From contig NZ_FNIT01000003.1 in the NCBI RefSeq assembly GCF_900104035.1, forward strand, positions 186,001 to 250,000: a DNA stretch of 64,000 nt, read 5' to 3'. The DNA comes from Aureimonas jatrophae (GTDB lineage Bacteria; Pseudomonadota; Alphaproteobacteria; Rhizobiales; Rhizobiaceae). Positions 6,191 to 8,633 of this stretch are shown here, piece by piece; position 1 is the stretch's first letter, and every line of letters starts with the position of its first letter. Made by a program: the position numbers and the translations under genes. The notes under the pieces were generated by a model. That model was given only the letters and a program-made list of their open reading frames with translations, did no database searches and was not told where the DNA came from.

Positions 6191-6823
6191 TCAGGGACCA
6201 CCGTTGGCGCGCCAGGACTTGAGCGGGCCGAAGGTCATCCGGTGGTATGGCGATGGACCGTGACGCTCCAGCGCCAGACGATGCTCCACCGTCGGATACC
6301 CCATATGACGGGCGAAGCCGTAGCGCCCATCCTGGCGATCGATCTCCCGCATCACCCGATCGCGCATGACCTTTGCGACGATCGAAGCTGCACCGATCGA
6401 CAGGGACAGGGCATCGCCACCCACCACGGCACGTGCTGGCTGCATCAGGCCTGGCGGCGTATCGCGCCCATCGACCAGAACCATGGCAGGCCTCCGGGGC
6501 AGGGCTGCAACCGCGCGACGCATCGCCAGCAGGGTCGCCCGCCGAATGTTTAACCTGTCGATCTCGGAGGCGGAGACGTACGCGAAGCCGACCTCCGCAT
6601 GCCGGAGGATGTCGCGAAAGACGGCTTCCCGCTGCGATGCCGTCAGCGTCTTCGAGTCTCCGATCCCGTCGGGAACGATCTGGCGGTCCAGAATTACCGC
6701 CGCTGCCACGACCGGTCCGGCTAGAGGACCGCGACCCGCTTCATCGACGCCACAGACCGGTGATGGTCCTGCGTCTTCGATCTCGAAGCTGGGGGAGATG
6801 ATGGTTCGGGCAAGGCGCGGCAT
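6191..6823 (-). CDS. rnhB: Ribonuclease HII
   Basis: RNase HII removes ribonucleotides from DNA and RNA primers. The 210-residue protein has CGVDEAGRGPLAGP with catalytic Asp27 and Glu28, the VDG and GDALSLSIGAASIVAKV region and GYPTVEHR, all typical of RNase HII. The frame stays open further upstream into the neighbouring radical SAM gene, but that part (Arg-rich, antisense-like) does not resemble the family. The start MPRLARTIISPSFEIE gives the normal length. Confidence 0.93.
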   Translation of the reverse strand: MPRLARTIISPSFEIEDAGPSPVCGVDEAGRGPLAGPVVAAAVILDRQIVPDGIGDSKTLTASQREAVFRDILRHAEVGFAYVSASEIDRLNIRRATLLAMRRAVAALPRRPAMVLVDGRDTPPGLMQPARAVVGGDALSLSIGAASIVAKVMRDRVMREIDRQDGRYGFARHMGYPTVEHRLALERHGPSPYHRMTFGPLKSWRANGGP

Positions 6824-6882
6824 CGGCCAGGCATGCCGGACCAGAGGCTCCGACTCAAGAGGCCGGGACGTCGCTCCGTCGT

Positions 6883-8031
6883 CTACAGAAGCGCCAACTG
6901 GACGCCGGCACCGCGCGGAGCGCGGAACAGATCGGTGCGCAGCTTCGTCCGCTCGAGGTTGAGATCCAGCCGCTTGGCCGCGATCTCGAAACGACGTCGG
7001 ATCTGCATTGCATAGGGTCCCTTGCCGGACATGCGGCGACCCCACTCGGCATCGTAGTCCTTGCCGTCCCGCATGGAACGTAGCAGGGCCATCACGTGCC
7101 TGTAGCGGTTCGGATAATGCTGCTGCAGCCAGTCGTGAAACAACGGTGCGACCTCCAGCGGGAGCCGCAGGAGGACGTAGCCGACCTCCTTTGCACCCGC
7201 GGTCGCAGCCGCTTCCAGGAGGCGTTCGATCTCGGCATCCGTCAGCCCCGGAATGATGGGAGCCGTCATCACCATGGTCGGAACGCCCGCCTCGTTCAGT
7301 TGGCGAACCGTGTCCAGACGGCGCGCAGGTGTTGCGGCTCGCGGCTCCAGCAGACGCGCCATCGTGCGATCGAGGGTCGTGATCGACAGGGCGACCTTGG
7401 CAAGACCCTTCGACGCCATGCGCGTCAGAATATCGAGGTCACGCAGGACGAGTGCGGACTTGGTGACGATGCCGACCGGGTGGTTGGCAGCTTCCAGGAC
7501 CTCGAGAATCTCACGCATGATCCGCTCGCGCTTCTCGATCGGCTGATACGGATCCGTATTGGCGCCGATCGCAAGAGCCTTGGGCTGGTAACCGGGTTTC
7601 GAGATCTCGGCTTCCAAGAGTTCAGCGGCATTGCGCTTGGCAAAGAGCTTCGATTCGAAATCGACGCCGGCCGACAGGCCCATGTAGGCATGGGTCGGAC
7701 GCGCGAAGCAGTAGACGCAACCGTGCTCGCAACCCCGATAGGGATTGACGGATTGCTCGAACGAGATGTCCGGAGAGTCATTGCGGCTGATGATCGTACG
7801 CGCGGACTCACCTTGAACCTCTGTGCGGAAGGCCGGGAGATCTTCCAATGAGTTCCAGCCATCGTCGAACGCCGAACGCGAGAACGGCTCGAAACGCCCC
7901 GACGGGTTGAGGCCGGCGCCGCGACCGCGCCGTCGTTCGAACCCGACCCGTAACCCAGCGTCCGACAAGAGACGCTGGGCCAGATCGGTTGAACCGGTCA
8001 CGCTCGGCAAGCTGGTCGCGAATTCCGGCAT
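6883..8031 (-). CDS. PA0069-family radical SAM protein (spore photoproduct lyase-like, SplB superfamily)
   Basis: The 382-residue protein carries the radical SAM cluster motif CEHGCVYC (Cys101, Cys105, Cys108) followed by FARPTHAYMGLSAG, and conserved blocks AIGANTDPYQPIE and VTKSALVLRDLDIL of COG1533. Spore photoproduct lyase is the best-known member and repairs UV thymine lesions. The substrate of the PA0069 group is not established to my knowledge. A LexA-type box overlaps the predicted promoter, which suggests a DNA-damage link. It lies 59 bases upstream of rnhB on the same strand and could be cotranscribed with it. Confidence 0.88.
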   Translation of the reverse strand: MPEFATSLPSVTGSTDLAQRLLSDAGLRVGFERRRGRGAGLNPSGRFEPFSRSAFDDGWNSLEDLPAFRTEVQGESARTIISRNDSPDISFEQSVNPYRGCEHGCVYCFARPTHAYMGLSAGVDFESKLFAKRNAAELLEAEISKPGYQPKALAIGANTDPYQPIEKRERIMREILEVLEAANHPVGIVTKSALVLRDLDILTRMASKGLAKVALSITTLDRTMARLLEPRAATPARRLDTVRQLNEAGVPTMVMTAPIIPGLTDAEIERLLEAAATAGAKEVGYVLLRLPLEVAPLFHDWLQQHYPNRYRHVMALLRSMRDGKDYDAEWGRRMSGKGPYAMQIRRRFEIAAKRLDLNLERTKLRTDLFRAPRGAGVQLALL

Positions 8032-8069: not shown

Positions 8070-8098
8070 AATCTACGATCGGATGGAGAACAATACAA
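8070..8098 (-). promoter_or_regulatory. Predicted sigma70-type promoter of the SPL-family gene
   Basis: On the minus strand TTGTAT (8098-8093) and TAGATT (8075-8070) are separated by exactly 17 bases, placing the start of transcription about 30 bases before the radical SAM start codon at 8031. The -35 hexamer lies inside the LexA-type box. Pattern match only. Confidence 0.5.
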
Positions 8099-8102
8099 GA
8101 AC
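8088..8102 (-). promoter_or_regulatory. LexA (SOS) box, alphaproteobacterial type
   Basis: GAAC-AATACAA-GAAC (minus strand GTTC-TTGTATT-GTTC) is an exact match to the alphaproteobacterial LexA direct-repeat consensus GTTC-N7-GTTC, with the AT-rich centre usual for functional boxes. It covers the -35 region of the predicted minus-strand promoter in the 119-base divergent gap, so LexA bound here would block transcription of the SPL-family gene and possibly of the opposite gene. Confidence 0.7.
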
Positions 8103-8150: not shown

Positions 8151-8633
8151 ATGCTGACCGCTATCGTCTGGGGCGTTTCCTCACCGCGTCCGTTCGCCGC
8201 CACCCTGGCTGACCTCGTACCTGCGGCTGTCGACGGCGCGTTGCGGGACGTTGTTGTCGTGGGCCTTCGCGACGAAGGAACGTGCCGTGCCATTGCGGAT
8301 CAGGCGGGCTGTCGTTTGCTCGCAGACAGTGCGCCAGCAGTGCACAGCTCGTCGCTCAAAGGGCGCTGGATACTTCTGTTGCAAAGCGGAGATCGTCTGC
8401 CTGTCGACTGGCTCAGTGCCATCGACCGGCACATGAGCGATCAAGACGGGGCGGCGCGTCTCGTCGTCGAGCGATCGCACTGGCCGGCATGGAAGCGCCT
8501 CATCGGTCGCCATCCGGTGGCGCCGTTGATTGCGCGCAATGAGATCGCGCGCAGTCAGGCCCGCAGTTGGCTGGAGCTCGCATCAGCGTCGCACGGCCCT
8601 CGGCTTCGCGCCGGACGACCGCATCGCGACTAG
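8151..8633 (+). CDS. Glycosyltransferase family 2-like short protein
   Basis: The 160-residue protein resembles a short GT2-like protein I recall from rhizobia: MLTAIVWGVSSPRPFAATLADLVPAA, then a VVVVGLRD strand and WILLLQSGDRLPVDWLSAI, which resembles the second half of a GT-A fold. It lacks a clear DxD metal site and is about half the length of a working GT2 enzyme, so catalytic function is doubtful. It shares a divergent gap with the SPL-family gene and converges on moaB with 17 bases between the stops. Confidence 0.6.
   Translation: MLTAIVWGVSSPRPFAATLADLVPAAVDGALRDVVVVGLRDEGTCRAIADQAGCRLLADSAPAVHSSSLKGRWILLLQSGDRLPVDWLSAIDRHMSDQDGAARLVVERSHWPAWKRLIGRHPVAPLIARNEIARSQARSWLELASASHGPRLRAGRPHRD

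Follow-up and report, generated by a model that had tools for sequence, protein, structure and literature searches.

Comparative evidence for LexA control of a PA0069-family radical SAM gene in Aureimonas jatrophae

A 64,000-nucleotide stretch of the Aureimonas jatrophae genome (contig NZ_FNIT01000003.1, positions 186,001 to 250,000; the window) carries a GAAC-N7-GAAC pattern directly upstream of a gene for a radical SAM protein. The initial annotation read this pattern as a LexA box lying on the promoter of the gene, which raises two questions. The first is whether the box is a LexA operator or a chance match, and the second is what SOS control would say about the function of the protein. The features concerned, in coordinates of the window, are as follows.

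8088-8102, no strand assigned: putative LexA operator, GAAC-N7-GAAC, reading GTTCTTGTATTGTTC on the strand of the radical SAM gene; exact match, present at 79 of 79 orthologue loci, sixth of 161 scored sites
8093-8098, minus strand: predicted -35 hexamer TTGTAT, within the operator spacer, from the sequence
8070-8075, minus strand: predicted -10 hexamer TAGATT, 17 bases from the -35 hexamer, from the sequence
6883-8031, minus strand: PA0069-family radical SAM protein of 382 residues with a CxxxCxxC motif (101-108), lacking the catalytic Cys (NF033668, 561.6 bits; fold; alignment)
6191-6823, minus strand: rnhB, ribonuclease HII, next gene downstream (NF000595, 227.6 bits against a cut-off of 167, on the longer ORF 6191-7045; start codon inferred)

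The exact match to the alphaproteobacterial LexA box is borne out by the window sequence, in which GAACAATACAAGAAC occupies 8088-8102 and its minus-strand reading, GTTCTTGTATTGTTC, points at the radical SAM gene. The claim that the box covers the -35 element of the promoter was also verified. TTGTAT-N17-TAGATT is present on the minus strand and heads for the radical SAM gene at 6883-8031, and the overlap is conserved in relatives.

The box pattern by itself is weak evidence. The initial annotation had cautioned that a motif with eight fixed bases arises by chance, and the counts agree with this. There are five matches to GAAC-N7-GAAC in the window against 2.4 expected, at least five were reached by 11 of 100 window shuffles, and the whole genome has 165 matches in 4.59 Mb. 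The remaining four matches in the window are all inside long ORFs. These numbers favor the view that the pattern landed on the promoter by chance; however, that view does not fit the conservation of the box. The orthologue set consists of the best 80 of 585 confirmed loci and is skewed to close relatives, the closest named orthologue in it being that of Aureimonas pseudogalii (82% identical). The box is found within 350 bases upstream in 79 of these 80 loci, and the one locus that is box-free (L079) has only 16 bases of upstream DNA; every locus with 350 bp or more of upstream DNA is boxed (79/79). As controls, the box occurs in 6 of 1,791 background 350-bp stretches from the same loci and in 41 of 3,950 shuffled upstreams. 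SOS control was to count as refuted if orthologues in related genera lacked the box, and no such refutation was obtained. Because the box is conserved upstream of orthologues, a chance match is rejected, and its probability is considered negligible.

The second set of comparisons is not skewed to close relatives. In a wider sample of Pseudomonadota (299 genomes), 111 PA0069-family genes exceed the cut-off, all of which were inspected; 72 are alphaproteobacterial (the window gene counted) and 39 are not. A perfect alphaproteobacterial box precedes 68 of the 72 (28/30 in loci L093-L122 and 40/42 in the rest), and the other four have a box with one mismatch only. Those four are weak evidence, since a one-mismatch box is also reached by shuffled upstreams (183 of 2,000). 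The alphaproteobacterial box is upstream of none of the 39 non-alphaproteobacterial genes, of which 29 have an E. coli-type box, CTGT-N8-ACAG. One of the two background matches in the non-alphaproteobacterial loci is probably the E. coli-type box of L193. One further non-alphaproteobacterial gene (L176) has the site TTAGTAATAATACTA, which is close to the TTAGTAGTAATACTACTAA found before lexA in the same genome (L245). Neither box type was found in 9 of the 39 genomes; LexA gave no match in one of these nine and a match below the cut-off in two (these three being G114, G029 and G108), and was over the cut-off in six.

Homologues from further afield were also compared. The Streptomyces homologue, on a plasmid record, has CGAACATGTGTTC upstream, which fits the actinobacterial LexA motif, and the Aeromonas homologue has CTGTATATATAAACAG. 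The Tsukamurella homologue, also on a plasmid record, has no CGAAC-N4-GTTC, only the five-base-spaced GAACGAGATGTTC. Across these lineages the box mostly tracks the predicted local LexA motif, which points to LexA control and would be hard to explain otherwise. The switch of box type with the local motif also argues against a chance origin of the window site.

The rank of the site within its own genome was assessed with a matrix that draws on 52 boxes from the lexA, recA and uvrA genes of relatives, the ranking covering 161 of the genome's 165 matches. The site at 8088-8102 is sixth of the 161, the lexA site is fifth and the uvrA site is 24th. The genome encodes lexA at C13:420364-421065, with GAACACAAGAGGAAC upstream. 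Two sites share first place, one preceding a DNA polymerase III alpha gene and the other an ImuA-like gene, whose ImuA match scores 66.3 bits, under the curated 150. A genome-wide ranking beside recA, lexA and imuA had been suggested as a check. The site stands next to that of lexA, and the ImuA-like site is joint first; the genome's own recA has no perfect box. Rank alone is no proof because of this lack of a perfect recA box, and because the fourth-ranked site is within ORFs with no evident SOS gene. A perfect box is present in relatives (as many as 26 genomes of the family) at 23 of 25 lexA loci, 23 of 25 uvrA loci and 7 of 25 recA loci, the recA count excluding L260, for which orientation was not assignable. 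The rank of the window site does indicate that its spacer, too, fits the LexA matrix, which further speaks against chance.

Two other sites in the genome are recorded here as separate observations. At G000:C17:25902-25971 (L086), two LexA-type boxes, spaced by about 40 bases, occupy the interval between an OsmC-like gene and the DNA polymerase III alpha gene, of which the locus holds 442 aa. At G000:C16:14343-14357 (L084), the LexA-type box ranked third of 161 is just 5' of a DUF3572 gene, with another box about 400 bases off.

The spacer of the box also carries promoter information. TTG is present within the box spacer in 73 of the 80 orthologue loci, and in 64 of the 73 the 17-base spacing leads to TA. 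The best-fitting -10 hexamer, TAGATT in the window gene, is most often TAGGAA in the relatives (54 of the 73 with TTG). Of 27 radical SAM boxes, 23 have the spacer CAA (TTG on the gene strand), compared with 0 of 23 for lexA, 0 of 7 for recA and 0 of 24 for uvrA. Among the gene types compared, TTG in the spacer is therefore peculiar to the radical SAM boxes. The simplest reading is that the -35 element would be built into the operator.

The intergenic region that holds the box is shared with a divergent ORF (8151-8633, 160 aa) that has no Pfam or NCBIfam match. It is thus conceivable that the operator serves mainly this ORF or rnhB, with the radical SAM gene as a bystander. In the best 80 of 585 loci, tblastn matches the divergent ORF in 67 (the 20 matches listed all lie upstream on the opposite strand) and rnhB in 76. 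However, among the 80 loci of the wider set L153-L232, one matches the divergent ORF and seven match rnhB, as judged from some 1.5 kb of upstream and 2 kb of downstream DNA per locus and with tblastn sensitivity falling with distance, and the radical SAM gene is still boxed in most of them. The -35 and -10 hexamers also face the radical SAM gene. Outside the Rhizobiales-rich sets, therefore, the two neighbors are mostly not found nearby and the box persists. Either neighbor as the main target was rejected on these grounds and is regarded as very unlikely.

With the radical SAM gene as the main target, rnhB may still share in the control. Of the 110 loci in the Rhizobiales-rich sets, 101 have an rnhB match close to the radical SAM gene. 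Both genes are present in 108 loci, are on the same strand in 105, and the rnhB match starts at most 300 bases past the radical SAM match in 77. This arrangement suggests that the two genes probably share a transcript and that the box probably also induces RNase HII in many Rhizobiales. If rnhB does share the SOS control, RNase HII would be damage-inducible in many members of that order.

Taken together, the orthologue loci (79/79), the alphaproteobacterial genes of the wider sample (68/72) and the rank within the genome (6/161) lend strong comparative support to the SOS control proposed in the initial annotation. The site at 8088-8102 is very probably a LexA operator over the -35 element of the radical SAM gene's promoter. 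In the undamaged cell, LexA would occupy the direct repeat and RNA polymerase would be blocked. After DNA damage, RecA filaments would provoke the self-cleavage of LexA and the radical SAM gene would be expressed. The repression and derepression steps are both established for LexA. The product would then be an enzyme with a [4Fe-4S] cluster and the fold of spore photoproduct lyase (SPL), whose known role is the repair of UV-damaged DNA. Using S-adenosylmethionine, it would most likely apply radical chemistry to damaged DNA, at a lesion that is not the spore photoproduct.

Regulation of this kind has been described before, and the present site would be a further, well-supported instance. LexA control of splB was predicted for alpha- and betaproteobacteria in 2012 by Sanchez-Alberola et al. 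(PMC3323433). In that paper, the splB product is termed a predicted photolyase and likened to the SPL of B. subtilis. The prediction is the same as the one made here, with LexA boxes before an SplB-like gene in classes of differing LexA motif. Two species of its table, S. meliloti and Paracoccus denitrificans, carry genes whose products share 66.4% and 53.7% identity, respectively, with the window protein; the S. meliloti box is GTTCTTGATTTGTTC (L321) and the Paracoccus denitrificans box is GTTCTCTAAATGTTC (L319). The splB of PMC3323433 probably belongs to the PA0069 family. In comparison with that paper, the present analysis names the family as PA0069 and adds the embedded -35 element, the orthologue counts, the rnhB neighbor and the SPL fold without the catalytic Cys to the published LexA prediction.

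Other sources point in the same direction. SplB (COG1533) is termed SOS-regulated in several species (PMC8565304), and SplB-like enzymes are tied to SOS-type operons (PMC3765255). In S. venezuelae, a radical SAM gene, vnz_31145, is bound by LexA and was 19.97-fold up with mitomycin C in RNA-seq (PMC9380542, Table 1). The literature found did not join PA0069 to radical SAM enzymes or to SOS/LexA, nor Rv2578c to LexA, and passages from one paper naming PA0069 and one naming Rv2578c hold no regulation data.

The function of the protein was considered next to its family and fold. The window protein scores 561.6 bits against NF033668 (rSAM_PA0069), which has a curated cut-off of 360, and 236.8 bits against the model of the Rv2578c family, under the curated 430. 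The Rv2578c-family radical SAM proteins of Actinobacteria are thus a related family, and the Streptomyces homologue shares the presence of an upstream box (CGAACATGTGTTC), but the LexA motif differs and the Tsukamurella member has no perfect box. PA0069 itself is presumably in the LexA regulon of P. aeruginosa, and Rv2578c in that of M. tuberculosis.

The predicted structure of the window protein has a middling mean pLDDT of 70.9. For this predicted model, the closest fold is SPL (Geobacillus SPL, PDB 4fhc, and others) with Z 18.9, an rmsd of 3.5 over 263 residues and 14% identity, the next family reaching Z 14.8. Below SPL, the structural matches include lipoyl synthase, RlmN, TYW1 and viperin. 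The kinship with the SPL superfamily that had been proposed from the sequence is therefore supported by the fold. A PDB profile search gave no SPL match (best E 0.024, to unrelated proteins), a single-sequence search was empty, and the SPL models PF20903 (Pfam) and TIGR04070 (NCBIfam) did not match the window protein at E 0.001. The predicted kinship surfaced through fold comparison only.

That SPL leads the structural matches so clearly raises the possibility that the protein is a true SPL, which would carry out SOS-induced repair of 5-thyminyl-5,6-dihydrothymine, as suggested in PMC3323433. The family alignment (MAFFT) has 188 rows including the window protein, which is 190 proteins minus L193 and L228. 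The three cluster Cys and the Tyr preceding the third Cys are kept in all 188 members, and these residues, like the fold and the CxxxCxxC motif, are common to the family and Geobacillus SPL. However, Geobacillus SPL has Cys140 and the PA0069 family has no equivalent. The corresponding position is Ala157 in the window protein and, in the register of the MAFFT alignment, is Cys in none of the 188 (T 139, A 12, I 11, S 10, G 7, V 6, M 2, P 1). The position of SPL Tyr98 is Phe in 157 members and Tyr in 31, and the next commonest Cys column beyond the cluster is occupied in only 48 of 188. An hhalign comparison of the family with an SPL homologue from the same genome (L254) aligned 98 columns, beginning one residue past the Cys position. 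Since the catalytic Cys is missing in 188 of 188 members, the SPL analogy cannot be extended to the substrate, and the SPL reaction was ruled out as the default.

The SPL homologue just mentioned is a separate gene at G000:C23:600827-601846 that keeps the catalytic Cys, in the motif FEASC. It scores 269.4 bits against PF20903 and 271.5 against TIGR04070 (under the cut-off of 400), and matches Geobacillus SPL at 6.7e-62. No GAAC-N7-GAAC box was found in its 4-kb locus. Among 81 genomes of the family, two, including this one, match the related model TIGR03886, weakly and under the cut-off. The presence of a Cys-bearing SPL homologue with no box in its locus also weighs against the boxed protein being a true SPL, an identity that seems improbable.

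With a true SPL set aside, the DNA-damage role of the radical SAM protein is inferred from its regulation and its fold, the latter taken from the predicted model. On this basis the enzyme is likely to act on DNA, and there is a somewhat better than even chance that its lesion is other than the spore photoproduct. An SOS-regulated enzyme that modifies RNA, protein or a small molecule in the stress response would be a different explanation of the same regulation. The core fold is common to radical SAM enzymes of many functions, such as lipoyl synthase, RlmN, TYW1 and viperin, and the neighboring RNase HII acts on RNA in DNA, both of which are compatible with a non-DNA target. The nearest fold, by about 4 Z units, is nevertheless a DNA repair enzyme, and a non-DNA target is considered unlikely, less so than the SPL reaction.

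A wider interpretation is offered tentatively, at somewhat below an even chance. Across much of Pseudomonadota, the PA0069 family may be an SOS enzyme that has escaped notice. It would reverse a DNA lesion by radical SAM chemistry without the cysteine relay of SPL, with RNase HII co-induced in Rhizobiales. Unrelated LexA box types (alphaproteobacterial, E. coli, and single Xanthomonas- and actinobacterial-type boxes) would have been kept or re-evolved before PA0069 genes and their relatives. The predicted regulation would place the need for the enzyme at the time of DNA damage, in lineages with unrelated LexA motifs, and the missing catalytic Cys makes the textbook SPL reaction unlikely. Together, the regulation and the missing Cys would make this uncharacterised family, present in 111 of the 299 sampled Pseudomonadota genomes, a testable lead to new radical-based DNA repair.
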